64,000 nucleotides of DNA from Gammaproteobacteria bacterium (lineage in GTDB: Bacteria > Pseudomonadota > Gammaproteobacteria > SZUA-229): contig JAOULC010000011.1 in NCBI GenBank assembly GCA_029882215.1, positions 1 through 64,000 on the forward strand, given 5' to 3'. The notes beneath the pieces are model-generated. The model had not been told where the DNA came from and did no database searches. It saw only the letters and a program-made list of their open reading frames with translations. The translations under genes and the position numbers were made by a program. Below, one piece after another: positions 2,550 through 42,164 of the stretch (the first letter of the stretch is position 1; each line of letters begins with the position of its first letter).

Positions 2550-3485
2550 TTAATACTCTGCATAAGCAAGCGAGAATGCACCGGGGCCAACATTAATAGC
2601 TGCTGTGGTACTCATTACCGCAAGCATACACGGAAGCCCCTGTTCCTTTAAAAACGATTCAAACTCAATAAAAGGCTTCATTGCTTTGATTTCACTCAGG
2701 TTGCCGGCATAACTCATTGATATAACTTTAATCAGTAAACCTCGGTGAACCGCATCTTTGGCTTTAGAAAATAATAATTCCAGACCTTTTTCATAGCCCA
2801 TCACTTTATCAACCGGTGACGTTTCACCTTTGTAACACTGAATAACCGGCTTCACATTCAGCATCGTGCCGACCTGATAACTGAACCAGCCGACACTCTT
2901 GTCGCCTTTTTTACTCGCATTATTTTTTAAATGGTACAGGTCACGTGGCAGCACATAAGCAAACACCCTGTCTTTTATTGCTTCAAGTTTTTTAATGATT
3001 TCATGCGGGCGTTTATTTTCTTCCTTAATCATGCGCACCGCTTCATGCACCAGAATTGCCTGTCCGGTGAACATTGTTCCGGTATCGAAAACATGTATCT
3101 TAAACGGACTGCTTTTACCGGATGCCTCTCTGATGCTTTTAAATTTTGGTGTGCTGATAAACACTGCTTCCTGAATGTTCTTATAGATTTCACTGCGCGC
3201 AGAATTAATGGTCATTACCAGCACTTCATCCGCTTTCAGGATCAGTTCCTGCTCAATCCGTTCTGTCATTTCAGCTACGGTATAAGGCCTGGTTTCGGCT
3301 GAGAAACCTTTCGCCGCCATATCATTATCGTAAAATGTTGTGGTCAGATCCGGGTCTCTGACATCAACAAAAACATTATCAGCAGACTTAACACTGATAG
3401 GCAACACCTCTACTCCATTTTCCTCAATGACTGCAGCCGGCAAATCACAGGCCGAATCTATAGCGATACTCACAGAAATAGCCAC
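2550..3485 (-). CDS. DegV family protein (fatty-acid-binding fold)
   Basis: The 311-residue protein opens with the DegV signature SIAIDSACDLP and follows that family's two-domain layout to its end. DegV proteins bind a long-chain fatty acid; in Firmicutes the FakB members present fatty acids to the kinase FakA. No FakA-like kinase is visible here and gammaproteobacterial members have no settled role, so only binding of a lipid is a fair inference. The start is GTG, chosen because an AAGGGGA ribosome-binding site lies about seven bases upstream. It is transcribed alone, convergent with pbpC and downstream of the SulP gene's terminator. Confidence 0.85.
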   Translation of the reverse strand: MAISVSIAIDSACDLPAAVIEENGVEVLPISVKSADNVFVDVRDPDLTTTFYDNDMAAKGFSAETRPYTVAEMTERIEQELILKADEVLVMTINSARSEIYKNIQEAVFISTPKFKSIREASGKSSPFKIHVFDTGTMFTGQAILVHEAVRMIKEENKRPHEIIKKLEAIKDRVFAYVLPRDLYHLKNNASKKGDKSVGWFSYQVGTMLNVKPVIQCYKGETSPVDKVMGYEKGLELLFSKAKDAVHRGLLIKVISMSYAGNLSEIKAMKPFIEFESFLKEQGLPCMLAVMSTTAAINVGPGAFSLAYAEY

Positions 3486-34939: not shown

Positions 34940-36049
34940 ATGAAAGCCAGAGCCGCTGTTGCATGGGAGGCTAAAAAGCCCCTTGAAATTGAAGAAGTTG
35001 AAGTGATGGGCCCAAAATTCGGTGAAGTCCTGCTAAAAGTGATCGCCTCCGGTGTCTGCCATACCGATGCCTTCACTCTTTCCGGTGATGACCCTGAAGG
35101 CGTCTTTCCCGCTATCCTCGGCCATGAAGGTGGCTGTGAAGTCGTTGAACTGGGGCCGGGCGTTAAAGATTTAAAAGTGGGCGACCACGTTATCCCTTTA
35201 TACATTCCTGAATGCGGCGAATGCGAATACTGCAAATCACCTAAAACAAATCTGTGCCAGTCCATTGCGTCAACAGTATGGACCGGTTATATGCCGGATG
35301 GCACCCGACGCTTCTCTAAAAACGGTAAAGATATTTTCCATTACATGGGGTGCTCAACTTTTTCTGAGTACACTGTGGTGCCGGAAATTGCACTAGCTAA
35401 AATCAACAAAGCCGCACCGCTCGACAAAGTCTGTTTATTAGGCTGCGGTGTCACCACCGGTATCGGTGCCGTATTGAATACAGCCAAAGTTGAAGCTGGC
35501 TCAACCGTTGCCGTGTTTGGACTTGGCGGTATTGGTTTATCTTGCGTTCAAGGTGCGGTAATGGCCGGTGCTACACGTATTATCGCGATCGACATTAATC
35601 CCGATAAATTTGAATTTGCCAAACAACTTGGCGCGACAGATTTTGTTAACCCGAATGAGATTGATGGCTCGTTTGTAGAATACATGCAGGACACGTTTAA
35701 CGGTGGCCCGGATTATTCTTTTGAATGCATCGGCAACGTACACGTGATGCGCGATGCTCTCGAATGCACACACATGGGCTGGGGAGTCTCCACCGTTATC
35801 GGTGTGGCCGGTGGTGGTCAGGTTATTCAAACCCGTCCTTTCAATCTGGTAGTGGGTCGTACCTGGAAAGGCACAGCTTTCGGCGGCGTTAAAGGCCGCA
35901 CCGAGTTACCCGGTTATGTTGATCGTTATATGGCCGGTCAAATTGAACTCGACAGTCTGGTCACTCACACCATGCCGCTTGAGGATATCAATCGCGCTTT
36001 TGATCTAATGCACAGCGGCGAAAGCATTCGCTCAGTGATTATTTTTTAA
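34940..36049 (+). CDS. frmA: S-(hydroxymethyl)glutathione dehydrogenase / class III alcohol dehydrogenase
   Basis: The enzyme oxidises the glutathione adduct of formaldehyde to S-formylglutathione with NAD+; it also reduces S-nitrosoglutathione. At 369 residues it is a typical zinc-dependent medium-chain dehydrogenase: [12 protein letters not shown] and GHEGGCEV supply catalytic zinc ligands, [15 protein letters not shown] the structural zinc, and [14 protein letters not shown] the nucleotide fold. The next gene, frmB, lies 16 bases downstream and completes the pathway. Confidence 0.97.
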
Positions 36050-36065
36050 GGACGGTACGATCACT

Positions 36066-36905
36066 ATGCAACAAATAGAAAACATCAAAGAATCCGGTGG
36101 CTTTCTGAATCGTTACATACACGATTCAGAAACCTGTCATTGTGAAATGACCTTCTCAGTGTATTTACCGCCACAGGCAGAAGCCGGCAATGTACCGGCC
36201 TTGTACTGGTTATCCGGTCTCACCTGCAATGATGATAACGCCCGCGTTAAAGCCGGCGCTCAGCGCTATGCCGCCGAGCACGGTATTGCAATCATATTTC
36301 CGGACACCAGTCCGCGCGGGGATGATGTCGCCGATGCAGAAGAGCGCTATGATCTTGGTAAAGGTGCCGGCTTTTATGTCAACGCAACACAAGAGCCCTG
36401 GTTAGCGCATTATCAGATGTACGATTACATCACTAAAGAGCTGCCGGCATTACTGGAGAAAAACTTACCGCTGATTCCCGGTATGAAATCCATTTCCGGA
36501 CACTCAATGGGTGGCCACGGCGCATTAATTTGCGCTCTTAAAAACCCTGACAGCTATAAATCTGTCTCGGCTTTTTCACCGATTTGCAATCCGCTTAACT
36601 GCGGCTGGGGGCAGGGTTGTTTCAGTGCCTATTTAGGCGAAGATACTAATAGCTGGAAGAATTATGACGCCACCTCTTTAATCGAAGCCGGTGCAAATGT
36701 GACTGATATCCTGATAGATCAGGGCACAGCCGATGAGTTTTACGACGAACAACAATTGCTGCCGGAAAACCTTAAAGCCGCCTGTGATAAATCAGGACAG
36801 GCACTAACGCTGCGCATGCAGGATGGTTATGATCACAGCTATCATTTTATCGCCAGCTTTATTGGTGAGCACATTGCCTATCATGCAAAGGCATTAAAAA
36901 CTTAA
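36066..36905 (+). CDS. frmB: S-formylglutathione hydrolase
   Basis: This 279-residue esterase-D family enzyme releases formate and glutathione from S-formylglutathione. The nucleophile is S147 in GHSMGGHGAL, with family blocks YWLSGLTCND, PDTSPRGDD and the catalytic histidine in YDHSYHFI. It forms an operon with frmA (16-base gap) and ends at a terminator. Confidence 0.96.
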   Translation: MQQIENIKESGGFLNRYIHDSETCHCEMTFSVYLPPQAEAGNVPALYWLSGLTCNDDNARVKAGAQRYAAEHGIAIIFPDTSPRGDDVADAEERYDLGKGAGFYVNATQEPWLAHYQMYDYITKELPALLEKNLPLIPGMKSISGHSMGGHGALICALKNPDSYKSVSAFSPICNPLNCGWGQGCFSAYLGEDTNSWKNYDATSLIEAGANVTDILIDQGTADEFYDEQQLLPENLKAACDKSGQALTLRMQDGYDHSYHFIASFIGEHIAYHAKALKT

Positions 36906-36999: not shown

Positions 37000-37782
37000 T
37001 TAAAAACTGTTCGTCAAACTAAAACCAATGCCAGAATCCGCCACCGAATCCGACAAACCGTTCAGCAGGTAAATATTAGAGAACCAGTTGTCATTAAACA
37101 CTCTGCCAATACCCAGTCCCAATATCTGAGCGTCGTCGTCACCATCAATTGTTGCCTGAGTATAATCATAGGACAGGCTAACCGAGGTCTTTGCATTCAC
37201 TTGATAATTAAAACCTGCCGTTGCAAAAAACACATCATTGAAATTAATTGTGTCAGTATCACCAACAAGCGTATATCCAATTGATAAAAATGGCTTCACC
37301 GGGTTTTTCTCATACGAACTATACAGACTCATGGAATAGTCATTTTCACCGGTACCCAGATTATTTTCCACACTGGCTGCTCCCAGCTTAACGCCAGCGG
37401 ACAGCTCGTAGTACATGAAACTGTTTTCTGGCAGTATCGAATAAGCGATGCCTGCTGAAACATCACCCAGCCCTGTTTCTGTGGTAATCGCAGATCCTGT
37501 TGTCCCACCAAAGCCTCCCATACCTCCGCCACCGCCACTTGGAATAACACTGCCATCACCCGTCACACTAATCAGGGGAGCGCTCAGCTTATAACTCCAG
37601 GCATCGCTCATATACTTCATACTTAATTGCACGGTCGTACTGTTTGTTTCATTTGTCAGGCCATAATTACCGCTGGTTTGCTCATAGCCAATACTGACAC
37701 TTGCCCGGCTATCAGCCAGCGCATGTTCAGATATGAATATCATCGCTGACAGATTTATAAGAAGTAAAACATGGCTTTTCAT
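37000..37782 (-). CDS. Predicted outer-membrane beta-barrel protein
   Basis: The product (about 260 residues) has a signal peptide (ending HALAD) followed by alternating amphipathic strands such as ASVSIGYEQTSG and TSVSLSYDYTQA, and it ends in phenylalanine, as outer-membrane barrels do. A glycine-rich loop (GGGGGMGGFGG) lies near the middle of the first half. The ATG at 37782 with a GAGAG ribosome-binding site directly precedes the signal peptide; an upstream in-frame ATG at 37812 is less likely. Specific function is unknown. It lies 126 bases downstream of the small exported protein gene on the same strand. Confidence 0.7.
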   Translation of the reverse strand: MKSHVLLLINLSAMIFISEHALADSRASVSIGYEQTSGNYGLTNETNSTTVQLSMKYMSDAWSYKLSAPLISVTGDGSVIPSGGGGGMGGFGGTTGSAITTETGLGDVSAGIAYSILPENSFMYYELSAGVKLGAASVENNLGTGENDYSMSLYSSYEKNPVKPFLSIGYTLVGDTDTINFNDVFFATAGFNYQVNAKTSVSLSYDYTQATIDGDDDAQILGLGIGRVFNDNWFSNIYLLNGLSDSVADSGIGFSLTNSF

Positions 37783-37908
37783 TTTCTCTCTCTTAAACAT
37801 AATTGAACACATCTGATACTAAACGGGTGAAACAAATCTGGCAGACATCAAACCAATTTACTTGCCGTGATATATAGCAGATAACCTCACCCGGTAGTGC
37901 AATCGTTC

Positions 37909-38235
37909 TTAACGGTTTCCACTCATAGGACGATTCATCATACCCTGACGCATCATAGAACCGGTATTATCCATACGTGATTGCATTCTATTCTGGTTTT
38001 CATTACGAATTTCACTTTGGCTCTGTTCCTTGTTCTGCTCCATTTTTTGCTCCATCTTCTGTTCACGAACACGTAGCTTCGCCTGCTCATTCTCAGGCGC
38101 ATTCAGGCTAAGCTCAGTACGAACCTGCTCTTGTGTACCCAGCTGCGTCATATCTGCCTCTGCTGCCGAAACAGAACCCATAGCAACTGAAAGTAATAAA
38201 GTTGCGCTTAAACCAACTGCTGTATTAATAGACAT
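37909..38235 (-). CDS. Small exported Met/Gln/Glu-rich protein, function unknown
   Basis: The 108-residue product has a clear signal peptide (about 1-24, ending SVSAAEA) and a charged, probably helical mature part dominated by E, Q, K, R, N and M, including KMEQKMEQNKEQSQSE and ending in MMRQGMMNRPMSGNR. Methionine-rich tails can bind copper or silver, but no proof exists here. The ATG at 38235 is supported by GGAG about nine bases upstream and by the signal peptide. Two 17-bp inverted repeats lie between it and the divergent DUF6502 gene. Confidence 0.68.
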   Translation of the reverse strand: MSINTAVGLSATLLLSVAMGSVSAAEADMTQLGTQEQVRTELSLNAPENEQAKLRVREQKMEQKMEQNKEQSQSEIRNENQNRMQSRMDNTGSMMRQGMMNRPMSGNR

Positions 38236-38263
38236 AATGTAAATCTCCGATAAAGTTAATAAT

Positions 38264-38280
38264 GTGGGATTAATTCCCAC
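38264..38280. promoter_or_regulatory. Operator-like inverted repeat, copy 1
   Basis: GTGGGATTAATTCCCAC has perfect six-base arms GTGGGA/TCCCAC around five bases. It matches copy 2 at 14 of 17 positions, with centres 32 bases apart, about three helical turns, in a divergent promoter region. Confidence 0.65.
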
Positions 38281-38295
38281 ATGCAGTCATTATGC

Positions 38296-38312
38296 GTGGT
38301 AATATTTCCCAC
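38296..38312. promoter_or_regulatory. Operator-like inverted repeat, copy 2
   Basis: GTGGTAATATTTCCCAC repeats the pattern of copy 1 with arms GTGG/CCAC (CGTGG/CCACG counting one flanking base). The pair lies between the small exported protein gene and the DUF6502 gene. The binding protein is unknown. Confidence 0.62.
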
Positions 38313-38402
38313 GTCAATATATAATCAGCAAAAGTTATAACCACAGACAAGATTGTGAAGCAGCTCTCAATCAACAGCGGACGAATCAAGGTACCGACAA
38401 AC

Positions 38403-39242
38403 ATGAGCCAGAACGGATACACCAAAACACAGCTAGCACTGATCAAAGCCATAAAAATGCTTTGCCGGCCTTTAATTCGGCTGTTAATAGAGAAAGGCAT
38501 CTCTTTCACGCAGTTTCGTGACTTAATCAAAGCCCTTTATGTAGAAGTCGCCGATGAGCATTTCGCCCTCGACCAAAAAAAGCCCAGTGACAGCCGGATT
38601 TTTGTGCTGACAGGGGTACATCGCAAAGACATCAAGCGCATCCGCCAGCAATCGGAACAGGAAGAGCAGGCGATCAGTAGTTCTGCCTCATTGACGGGTG
38701 AGATCGTCGCGCGCTGGAGCAGCATGCCACAGTACCTTGATAAAGCGGGCAAACCAAGGTCATTACTTCGCTCTGATAAAGAGAATATTTCAGGGTTTGA
38801 CCAGCTGGTCAGCAGCGTTAACAAAGACGTCAGGCCAAAAGTCATCCTTGATGAATGGTTACGCCTTAATATTGTGCACATCAGGGATGACTATATTGTG
38901 CTCAATCAATCCGCATTTGTCAGCAACAAAGAATTTAACGAAATGGCCTACTACCTTGGGCACAACATGCATGACCATATGGCAAGCTGTGTGAATAACA
39001 TTTTAGAAGAAGATCGGCCAATGTTAGAACGCAGCGTTTATTACAGCGACCTGAGCAAGGACTCAGTGACAAAACTACGGACGATGGCGAGCGAAAAAGG
39101 CAATGAACTGCTGCAGTATTTAAACAAACAGGCGATTGTTTTTTATGATGCTGATAAGGATAAAGCCGATGCAAACCAGCGCATACGTTTAGGCGTTTAC
39201 TGGTATCAAACACAGCTTAATGATAACGGAGAAGCGAAATAA
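38403..39242 (+). CDS. DUF6502 family protein
   Basis: The product (about 279 residues) matches the DUF6502 pattern: an N-terminal helical part with LCRPLIRLLIEKGISFTQFRDL and ALYVEVA, then LTGVHRKDIKRIR (about 60-72), which looks like a winged-helix or helix-turn-helix segment. No membrane helix or signal is seen, so it is probably cytoplasmic and may bind DNA, by inference. The ATG at 38403 starts just before the conserved part; a GTG at 38355 is also in frame. Its stop overlaps the next start (TAATG), so DUF6502 and DUF5666 are translationally coupled. Confidence 0.75.
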   Translation: MSQNGYTKTQLALIKAIKMLCRPLIRLLIEKGISFTQFRDLIKALYVEVADEHFALDQKKPSDSRIFVLTGVHRKDIKRIRQQSEQEEQAISSSASLTGEIVARWSSMPQYLDKAGKPRSLLRSDKENISGFDQLVSSVNKDVRPKVILDEWLRLNIVHIRDDYIVLNQSAFVSNKEFNEMAYYLGHNMHDHMASCVNNILEEDRPMLERSVYYSDLSKDSVTKLRTMASEKGNELLQYLNKQAIVFYDADKDKADANQRIRLGVYWYQTQLNDNGEAK

Positions 39243-40117
39243 TGATTCATCTATACCGGGTATTTATTTTTCTCCTGATAACCAGTGTCAGCGCTTGTGT
39301 CTCAACACAAACGAACATCGCTGGCGGCAATGATGAAGACCGAGATATCGGTTTAGGTGGCACAGGCATGCTGGCCAATACGGGCGCAGGGCTGGGAGGC
39401 ACCGGCATTCACGGTGTCATAACCGGCTTCGGCAGCATCTTTGTCAACGGTGTTGAGATTGAATACAACAACGCCACGCCTTTCACGATTGATGGTACAG
39501 CAGCCACTCATCAAGCACTGCAAATGGGTGACGTTGTTGAAGTACTGACGAGCAATACACAACAACATACTCATGCCCGTATCATTAACCTCCGACATGA
39601 AGTCATTGGTAAAGTGGAATCGGTAAGTCCCGAAACAGCAAGCTTTACCGTGCTCGGGCAAACCATTATTCAGGCATTAGACACGCCCTTACCACAGCCG
39701 GGATCAAACGTTGCAATAAGTGGCTTCCGGACGAATGATAAAACCATACAGGCAACCAGAGTAAAGCCGGCAACGCATATGAAAAGCTTATTGCGCAGCC
39801 GTACCGAGTTACCGTTTAGCCAACAGACAAGTCGCTGGCTGATACAGACCTATGCAGAAAAAAATCAAATAACTTTAACGACTGGTGAGCAGTCAACTGT
39901 ATTGACACAATCGCCCAATACGACAGCAACGCAATCTCAAATTAAAATATTACAGCTGCATAAAACAAAAGCCGGTGAGCTTGTTTTTGATCGTGAAGTT
40001 GATATGAATAGTTTACCGCGTGGCAGACAAAGCATTAAACCGGAGGCAGGTACAGACAGACGAATTGGTCCGCTTCATATGAACAATAGAACAAGCATAC
40101 CGGTAATGAGACGATAG
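39242..40117 (+). CDS. DUF5666 lipoprotein coupled to the DUF6502 gene
   Basis: The 291-residue product has a signal peptide with lipobox VSAC (Cys19). After a glycine-rich stretch (GLGGTGMLANTGAGLGGTG, about 37-55) comes a DUF5666 domain with ITGFGSIFVNGVEIEY (about 60-75), FTIDG and GDVVEV, and a second, weaker unit to about residue 175. The C-terminal third is polar with basic ends. It shares its motif with the larger lipoprotein at 5359. Its start overlaps the DUF6502 stop by one base. Function is unknown; the pairing points to an envelope role under the control of, or assembled with, DUF6502. Confidence 0.78.
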   Translation: MIHLYRVFIFLLITSVSACVSTQTNIAGGNDEDRDIGLGGTGMLANTGAGLGGTGIHGVITGFGSIFVNGVEIEYNNATPFTIDGTAATHQALQMGDVVEVLTSNTQQHTHARIINLRHEVIGKVESVSPETASFTVLGQTIIQALDTPLPQPGSNVAISGFRTNDKTIQATRVKPATHMKSLLRSRTELPFSQQTSRWLIQTYAEKNQITLTTGEQSTVLTQSPNTTATQSQIKILQLHKTKAGELVFDREVDMNSLPRGRQSIKPEAGTDRRIGPLHMNNRTSIPVMRR

Positions 40118-40183: not shown

Positions 40184-41590
40184 TTACTCTGTTTCAGATC
40201 CGCTGGTCAGCTCTCGTTTCCATTTAAGCTTTTTTTCTATGGCGCTAATGATCATACCCGCAATGTCTTTACCGGTTGCCGACTCAACACCTTCAAGACC
40301 CGGTGATGAATTCACTTCCAGCAATAACGGTCCGTCTTTAGACCTGATGATATCAACCCCGGCAATTTGTAACCCCAGTACTTTTGCCGCTTTTATTGCC
40401 AGTGCTTTTTCTTCTGCTGTGGGCTTAGCAACTAATGCAGAACCACCCTGATGAAGATTGGCACGAAACTCACCCGGTGCCGCTGTTCTTTCAATAGTAG
40501 CGACCACTTTTCCATCGATCACAAAGCATCTCAAATCCTTGCCATCTGCCTCTTTTACAAACTTCTGAACCAGCAGATTAGCCCTTAAAGATTTAAACGC
40601 ATTAATCACACTTTCCGCTGCTTTTTGTGTTTCTGCTAAAACCACACCCCGGCCCTGAGTGCCTTCCAGTAACTTTACAATCAAAGGAGCCCCACCGACC
40701 ATTTCAATAATATCATTGGTATCCATTGGCGAGTTTGCAAAGCCTGTGGTCGGAATATTAATTCCATTCTTAAGCATGAGCTGTAAGGAAAACAGTTTAT
40801 CTCTTGACTGTGATATAGCTCTGGATGAATTAGTTGTATAGATACCCATACTTTCAAACTGTCGCGCTAAAGAAGTTCCGTAAAAGGTAACGCTCGGTCT
40901 GATCCGGGTAATCACCGCATCAAGGTCATTCAGTATTTTACCGCCGCGATAATGTGCTTCGGGCTCGCTGGCATCCAGTTTCATATAACATTGCGTGGCA
41001 TTTAAGAATATCATTTCATGTCCGCGCTCATCTCCCGCTTCCAGTAAGCGTTGATTGCTGTATAAACTTTCATCACTGGCAAGCAGGCCTATTTTCAGTC
41101 CGCTGCTTGCACCCTCAGCCGTACCGTAAAATGAATTCAGCTCATCTTTACTGACTGTGCCAAGCGTACATACCATCGAAGGGTCAACAATCAGGCGATC
41201 AATCATAGCCTCACGCCCCAGTAACATACGAAAGCCCATCGAGTCCCTGTTTGCCAGTGTTAGTTCAATATCCCAGATATTATCGGCAAATTTTATTGGT
41301 ACGCTGACCACATAACGTGTCTCACCCAGTCCGCTCGAACTTTTTACAATCCGTTTATCAACAACGGGCTGTTCACAGCGGATAACAATCCTGCGATTAT
41401 TCTGTACGGGATGAATTTCAAAACTCACCCAGAGCGTGCCTGCCCTGCGAAAAGTCTGAATATTAAAAGCATGTATCGATGAAGTTTTAGCTCCTGAATC
41501 CACTCTGGCTTTGATTGCGGGGATCCCCAGCTGAGGAAAAGAGCACCACTCTTCACTTCCGATGATCAGTTTAGAATTAGCCGTATTCAT
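40184..41590 (-). CDS. Fusion of RimB-like retropepsin/zinc protease domain and RimK ATP-grasp ligase
   Basis: The 468-residue protein has two parts. Residues about 5-140 are an ATP-dependent zinc protease/RimB-like domain (PF05618 type) with the retropepsin-style [12 protein letters not shown] and LLGREAM. Residues about 165-455 are a RimK-type ATP-grasp domain with [31 protein letters not shown] and [15 protein letters not shown]. RimK adds glutamates to the C terminus of ribosomal protein S6; in Pseudomonas the protease RimB trims them. Here ligase and protease-like activities would be on one chain. The substrate is not proven by sequence. Confidence 0.85.
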
Positions 41591-41810: not shown

Positions 41811-42164
41811 TTACAGGCTTTTTCCATTAAACACATCAACCGTTAAGGCATTTGTATCAATCTCATCAATACAGCCAAGATTAACTCGGTAGTGCCCCGG
41901 CATCCGGATAGTTTCATGAAAAGGGTAAATCCCGCAGGTTTTACAAAAGTGATGCTTAGCTATTTTTGTATCGAACTGATACAGGCCCAGCGCATCATTA
42001 TCCACTTTGATCTCTAGCTCTTGCGGTGAAAGTGTAAAGGACGACATGACTGCTCCTTTTCTCCGGCAGATAGAGCAATTACACCTTAAACCTTTCTCGA
42101 TGTCATCATGCTCAAATGAAAATGATATATCACCGCAATGACAGCTGCCTTTAAATATTTTCAT
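41811..42164 (-). CDS. GFA family zinc protein
   Basis: The 117-residue protein matches the Gfa/CENP-V fold with its zinc-binding cysteines: CHC at 8-10, C28, C30 and C33 (CNCSIC), and FCKTCG (about 73-78). The founding member was reported to help formaldehyde react with glutathione, though that activity is disputed and many members have other roles. Presence of frmA and frmB 5 kb away fits formaldehyde metabolism but does not prove it. Confidence 0.85.
   Translation of the reverse strand: MKIFKGSCHCGDISFSFEHDDIEKGLRCNCSICRRKGAVMSSFTLSPQELEIKVDNDALGLYQFDTKIAKHHFCKTCGIYPFHETIRMPGHYRVNLGCIDEIDTNALTVDVFNGKSL

Follow-up and report, generated by a model that had tools for sequence, protein, structure and literature searches.

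The closest described counterparts of the locus reported here are one-component autorepressors of the TetR, MarR, and LacI types, in which the regulator gene is adjacent to a divergent promoter, inverted-repeat operators lie over promoter elements, and paired operators are ∼3 helical turns apart. The same arrangement was found beside a DUF6502 gene in the window (the whole 64,000-nucleotide stretch of gammaproteobacterial DNA that was analyzed). DUF6502 differs from those repressors, however, in having neither a helix-turn-helix match in Pfam above cut-off nor a solved structure recognizable by sequence, and in a TGGGA half-site whose spacing, N5 or N6, is fixed per protein clade. MraZ boxes consist of GTGGG units arranged as direct repeats. 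A GTGGG-type half-site is common to both, but the units here are inverted, with 5 or 6 nt between them, which bears out the contrast with mraZ boxes drawn in an earlier reading made from the letters of this DNA alone (the sequence-only reading). Operators of the MerR family are characterized by a lengthened spacer of 19–20 bp. The palindrome in the −35/−10 spacer, and the copper-related genes beside two relatives, are reminiscent of members of this family such as CueR; in contrast, the spacer here has the normal 17 bp, and the locus has a second operator after the −10 box.

Results

Two inverted repeats occupy a divergent promoter

The first site, O1 (GTGGGATTAATTCCCAC, 38264–38280), is a perfect 6-bp inverted repeat flanking N5; the second, O2 (GTGGTAATATTTCCCAC, 38296–38312), has a single arm mismatch (GTGGTA/TCCCAC). 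As previously noted, the two agree at 14 of 17 positions, their centers (38272 and 38304) are 32 bp apart, and the pair lies between divergent genes, one for a small exported protein (minus strand) and one for DUF6502 (plus strand). The features of the locus are:

37000–37812, minus strand: outer-membrane beta-barrel-like protein (OMP_b-brl, 23.8 bits, short of the 28.7 cut-off)
37909–38235, minus strand: small exported Gln/Arg/Met-rich protein, 108 aa, putative divergent target gene (ORF; counterpart in relatives)
38264–38280, no strand: candidate operator O1, GTGGGA-N5-TCCCAC (match, promoter position, kept in relatives)
38289–38294, minus strand: −10 box CATAAT of the small-exported-protein promoter (promoter scan; relatives)
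38296–38312, no strand: candidate operator O2, GTGGTA-N5-TCCCAC (match, promoter position, kept in relatives)
38312–38317, minus strand: −35 box TTGACG of the small-exported-protein promoter (consensus match; same place in 9/10 loci)
38320–38325, plus strand: −10 box TATAAT of the DUF6502-DUF5666 operon (7 bp after O2; TATAAT/TATACT in 10/10 loci)
38403–39242, plus strand: DUF6502 gene (PF20112), proposed repressor (108.3 bits, cut-off 27, residues 12–271)
38583–38660, plus strand: putative helix-turn-helix of DUF6502, codons 61–86, with the invariant R74 (alignment, low-confidence model)
39242–40117, plus strand: DUF5666 gene, proposed operon partner (42.7 bits, cut-off 27)

Scored against TGGGA-N5-TCCCA, O1 matches at 10/10 and O2 at 9/10 positions, which places the window in the DUF6502 operator class as defined here (TGGGA-N5/6-TCCCA within ∼250 bp upstream of DUF6502); the window protein itself scores above the curated Pfam cut-off for DUF6502 (PF20112). 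The start codon of the small exported protein ends at 38235 on the minus strand, and the DUF6502 ATG is at 38403 on the plus strand; an earlier in-frame GTG exists at 38355, but relatives align from the ATG. The start of the DUF5666 gene overlaps the DUF6502 stop codon, and its product has, by eye, a lipoprotein-like N-terminus. The small exported protein (108 aa) matched no family over the cut-off in family searches; loci L007 and L027 have a 36% identical protein at the corresponding place. The beta-barrel-like gene, which comes next on the same strand, is a possible further target that would be co-regulated.

The near-consensus divergent promoter, TTGACG-N17-CATAAT on the minus strand, matches the consensus at 10 of 12 positions. 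Its 17-bp spacer is filled by O2, and the TATAAT box of DUF6502 starts 7 bp past the end of O2 on the plus strand. O1 begins 8 bp after the CATAAT box, so that, counted from a presumed start point, it would span roughly positions +2 to +18 of the divergent transcript. That O2 overlaps promoter elements of both divergent genes supports the earlier proposal that one regulator could control both.

With up to three mismatches allowed, a merged pattern gave four strand-matches in the window, all of them at O1 and O2, whereas shuffled windows gave a mean of 0.72 (SD 0.83) and none of 100 reached four; thus, the window alone already exceeds chance. When the whole genome was searched with GTGGKAWWWWWTMCCAC, a 17-bp pattern with alternatives at variable places, two sites were found at zero mismatches (O1 and O2) and none at one; the other 20 sites, at two mismatches, correspond to background (22 in total versus 23 for the reversed pattern). 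This genome-wide uniqueness is as for a local regulator.

Genes for formaldehyde detoxification lie near the locus (34940–36905 and 41811–42164). Judged by eye, one ORF of 369 aa resembles glutathione-dependent formaldehyde dehydrogenase and another resembles S-formylglutathione hydrolase; a Pfam search added a GFA-family protein. On the minus strand at 40184–41590, a single ORF fuses a putative ATP-dependent zinc protease domain (PF05618) to a RimK-type ATP-grasp ligase (PF18030, PF08443).

The site pair is conserved among close relatives

DUF6502 (PF20112) is encoded in 23 of the 54 genomes of the window's family and falls into two subfamilies, scoring ∼100 and ∼180 bits. Conservation upstream of orthologous loci, on which the sequence-only reading had made itself depend, was found at every intact close ortholog: the sites are present at 10/10 loci of the window's DUF6502 clade in which the upstream region is intact, the window included. 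At all 10, TATAAT or TATACT follows O2 after 7 bp, and at nine, O2 lies between an opposite-strand TTGACG and a −10-like hexamer spaced by 17 bp. At the remaining locus, L029, only one O2 precedes DUF6502, and the complete cassette, with the pair, is found 0.5 kb upstream, facing another small exported protein.

The pattern GTGGKAWWWWWTMCCAC occurs in 12 of the 54 family genomes, with 37 sites versus one for the reversed pattern. Among the 11 genomes with window-type DUF6502, 10 contain it, and in the 11th (G016), the gene is cut at a contig end. Only two of the remaining 43 (G030 and G046) contain it, at one site each and inside ORFs; same-genus genomes lacking DUF6502 (G035 and G036) have no such site. 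The single matches in G030, G046, and G000:C22 were set aside as chance, since they lie inside ORFs. At L057 (G008:C332, ∼2905–3240 and upstream), a second DUF6502 copy is seemingly broken (an in-frame fragment of 111 aa), with its operator pair intact.

The half-site recurs across the DUF6502 family

Upstream regions of 142 DUF6502 genes (140 distinct) were collected from the family and from a class sample, which together form a large but incomplete sample. DUF6502 was detected in 99 of the 369 class genomes; 80 stretches from them were picked by hand (L177 comprising 61 bases, and L138 and L159 two genes each), with most of the fragments, the rows interrupted by stop codons, and certain other rows omitted. 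This search of other DUF6502 promoters, which had been suggested together with the sequence-only reading, found the same half-site across the family. In an unbiased count of 4-bp dyads over the 142 regions, for which no motif was named, forms of this half-site ranked first: TGGG-N8 (55) and GGGA-N6-TCCC (54), which are the same sites, and GGGA-N5-TCCC (26). In the coding control, the counts were zero for both GGGA-N6 and GGGA-N5, and zero or one across the top forms; the first dyads unrelated to the half-site occurred in at most nine regions each. Perfect TGGGA-N4..7-TCCCA sites were present in 66 of the 140 distinct regions (shuffle mean 0.3; own coding sequences 0), and sites matching at 9/10 positions or better in 87 (shuffle mean 4.6; coding 1). 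Variants altered in both arms were seen in several of the rest, for example, CGGGA..TCCCG (L122), AGGGA..TCCCT (L105 and L149), and GTGTGA..TCACAC (L150).

Across the class sample of 369 genomes, 12 contained the motif GTGGGAW5TCCCAC, and DUF6502 was detected in 11 of these (Fisher P = 3e-6, uncorrected for relatedness); 22 contained TTGGGAW6TCCCAA, and 19 of these were DUF6502-positive (Fisher P = 3e-9, likewise uncorrected). Operator sites are rare in genomes without DUF6502. The four class genomes with a full motif and no detected DUF6502 are G279, G121, G151, and G238; the site in G279 lies ∼75 bp upstream of a lipoprotein-like ORF, although it shares bases with the end of a short ORF that is itself uncertain.

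Outside the class, 74 plasmid records had a DUF6502 match, and four of these were inspected. Azospirillum lipoferum has GTGGGAAAATTTCCCAC upstream of DUF6502. Of the three sites in Methylocystis iwaonis, one is perfect and the others have one or two core mismatches. No site was found upstream of DUF6502 in Rhizobium johnstonii 3841 and R. etli; both loci have one site just after DUF5666, before the next gene. That on pRL12 of R. johnstonii 3841 (TGGGAAATTTTCCCA, L198:5404–5418) precedes a small hypothetical gene, and its R. etli counterpart is at L201:5368.

Operator spacing follows the protein clade

A tree was built from 138 of the 140 proteins, after two shorter than 200 residues had been dropped; 25 belong to genes with N5 sites, 61 to genes with N6 sites, and 52 to genes without an upstream site at 9/10 or better. 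The last number speaks against DUF6502 as the binding protein. On this tree, N5 versus N6 is a single change. A second tree of the 86 labeled proteins, from which the helix-turn-helix columns had been removed, again required one change (support 100), versus a mean of ∼22 after shuffling. The window protein (row L004) falls in the N5 clade, in agreement with its spacing. Four genomes (G012, G050, G052, and G053) hold both paralogs, and in each, the N5-clade gene has an N5 site and the N6-clade gene an N6 site; the N5 gene of G053 has the same sequence as L005. Because paralogs within one genome keep the spacing of their own clade, an unlinked host regulator is hard to reconcile with these data. 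DUF6502 had been put forward as a candidate autoregulator, and this proposal is strengthened by a half-site that is family-wide and a spacing that tracks the protein clade.

Spacing is also accompanied by a difference at residue 73, the putative start of the recognition helix, which is His in 25/25 N5 proteins and 0/61 N6 proteins; the latter have Ser, Thr, Asn, Tyr, or Asp at this position (61/61). The neighboring R74 is invariant (138/138), and the outer pair is G..C in the sites of 20 of the 25 N5 proteins. Because the clade split is statistically one event, the link between residue 73 and spacing is suggestive only.

The two clades differ in promoter architecture as well. A second site at a distance of 25–45 bp is present at 14 of 25 N5 loci versus 8 of 61 N6 loci; the pair spaced by ∼3 helical turns is typical of the window's own clade only. 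In the N6 clade, TTGA[CA] upstream is combined with TANNNT inside the operator core at 28 of 61 loci, a combination seen in 3 of 244 control windows. At 26 of 61 loci, exactly 3 nt separate the operator from the first start codon in frame. This arrangement suggests that N6-clade DUF6502 transcripts may be leaderless, with the operator on the −10 box. At individual N6 loci, such as L012, L014, and L024, the start codon follows the operator containing the −10 box after 3–4 nt.

The DUF6502 protein

In Pfam, DUF6502 matched no helix-turn-helix family above cut-off. A conserved stretch at residues ∼64–79, in which TG-x-x-RK[DE] marks the turn and the beginning of the helix, resembles a turn with its recognition helix. 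Two AlphaFold2 models, based on five sequences (the window protein and four relatives), were of low confidence (mean pLDDT 46.5 and 59.1). Only residues ∼100–170 were confident in the first, with a winged-helix-like H-H-H-E-E order; the second had helices at 35–49, 63–70, and 74–86, with pLDDT 72–77 for the blocks at 61–80 and lower values for most of the rest. Foldseek returned no match at E 0.001 or better; VIA-align gave nothing at Z 5 or more, an outcome taken as evidence neither for nor against a fold; a PDB profile search (73 of the 86 diverse DUF6502 proteins) gave nothing below E 0.15.

Two known regulator families were considered and rejected. Membership in the CRP/FNR family was dismissed, as neither a cyclic-nucleotide-binding nor a Crp helix-turn-helix match was found in Pfam, and the weak CRP rows in Foldseek (E 0.29 or worse) came from a poor model. 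For the MerR family, no Pfam match was found in DUF6502 up to E 1.

Proposed targets and a possible inducer

A DUF5666-like ORF lies beside DUF6502 at 56 of the 58 loci whose flanks are long enough. Relatives have further sites before genes for a beta-propeller lipoprotein and for Gln/Arg-rich small exported proteins, and at a divergent gene pair, one for a TPR protein and the other for a small exported protein rich in His and Asp. Exported proteins are the common theme of the targets. When 10 such candidate target places were examined, TTGACG, operator, and −10-like hexamer were in register at nine, like the cassette of the window; at the 10th (L060), the promoter is present, with a spacer lacking a good operator. 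At this same place (G052:C11, 3758–4585), an operator-like site lies by a gene for a CRP/FNR-type regulator, which is followed by a molybdopterin oxidoreductase gene.

At the second DUF6502 locus of G008 (L057), an outer-membrane efflux gene is present together with a gene for a copper storage protein of the Csp1 family (TIGR04401, 111.9 bits, cut-off 100). In G012, genes for an outer-membrane efflux protein and for an RND protein similar to CusA/CzcA come after the operon; the RND match is 345.1 bits for a fragment cut by the stretch, with a cut-off of 701. No copper-type neighbors were found at the window locus in the stretch examined. Copper as the inducer, suggested by these neighbors only, is kept as a weak lead because it comes from two loci, neither of them the window.

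Discussion

The DNA itself shows the sites, where they lie within the promoters, that they are conserved, and that they are inherited together with the DUF6502 clade. With considerable confidence, we take O1 and O2 to be operators of the adjacent DUF6502 protein, which would most likely be a dimeric helix-turn-helix repressor that shuts both promoters. A DUF6502 dimer bound to O2 would come to lie in the −35/−10 spacer of the divergent promoter and immediately before the −10 box of its own operon, so that both promoters would be shut. O1, which is three helical turns away and covers the predicted start of the divergent transcript, would bind a further dimer that tightens repression, perhaps cooperatively. 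A signal, probably from the cell envelope (heavy metals being one weak lead), would then release the repressor. That DUF6502 binds, that it represses and does not activate, that its dimers cooperate, and what induces release are the inferred parts of this scheme. Speaking against it are the 52 proteins without an upstream site, the two Rhizobium promoters, the four class genomes with a motif and no detected DUF6502, and the low-confidence structure models with no convincing relative.

It is improbable that an unlinked regulator binds the sites and has the DUF6502-DUF5666 operon as merely one target, since the spacing within one genome follows the DUF6502 paralog and not the genome, co-segregates with the protein tree in one change, and belongs to a motif nearly absent where DUF6502 is absent; beside the mapped DUF6502 loci, ORF maps and a few Pfam scans revealed no other candidate DNA-binding gene. 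Such a regulator would account for the sites that, in some relatives, precede genes far from DUF6502, for the motif in the four class genomes in which DUF6502 was not detected, and for the two Rhizobium DUF6502 promoters without it. A role of the palindromes at the RNA level, forming hairpins or attenuators in a 5′ leader, is suggested by the predicted position of O1 in the divergent leader and by a simple scan that reads O1 as terminator-like. Such a role is very hard to uphold, as O2 lies in the promoter spacer, outside the divergent transcript, the N6-clade operator covers a −10 box upstream of the transcript, and one motif serves both strands and many genes.

A more serious, although still unlikely, alternative retains binding by DUF6502 and differs in its outcome: from O2, the protein would activate its own operon while repressing the divergent gene. 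O2 does occupy the −35 place, leaving by eye no good −35 box for the DUF6502 promoter, and its distance to the −10 box is fixed in 10/10 loci. However, the promoter of the N6 clade has a consensus-like −35 box while its −10 box lies under the operator, which fits repression, and the divergent promoter, judged by its sequence, needs no activator. The promoter arrangement thus points to repression by DUF6502.

O1 and O2 are therefore very probably operators of an undescribed regulator family, and the interpretation given in the sequence-only reading stands in a broadened form. No paper naming DUF6502 or PF20112 was found in the literature; among the matches listed for the half-site combined with operator, repressor, or regulator themes, titles and abstract openings mentioned no such operator. 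On balance, we lean toward a still wider reading, in which DUF6502 would be an undescribed repressor family, coupled in operons to DUF5666 envelope proteins and occurring in two or more classes of proteobacteria. Operator spacing (N5 or N6) would have changed together with the residue that opens the recognition helix (His73 or Ser/Thr/Asn), as a readable specificity code, and a regulon of exported proteins would be controlled through a stereotyped repressible promoter, TTGAC-[GTGGGA-N5-TMCCAC]-CATAAT-[GTGGGA-N5-TCCCAC].

A protein family of no assigned function, present in 99 of 369 class genomes, would thereby gain a specific role and its own DNA target, and the operator would be a handle for finding the DUF6502 regulon in any genome. 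Cultured hosts of DUF6502 include Rhizobium johnstonii 3841, with the gene RL_RS33240, and Azospirillum lipoferum 4B, with AZOLI_RS20800. The two spacing classes, together with the difference at residue 73, may represent a natural case of repressor and operator changing together, and the promoter cassette could be put to use where tight repression by a small, orthogonal repressor is wanted.
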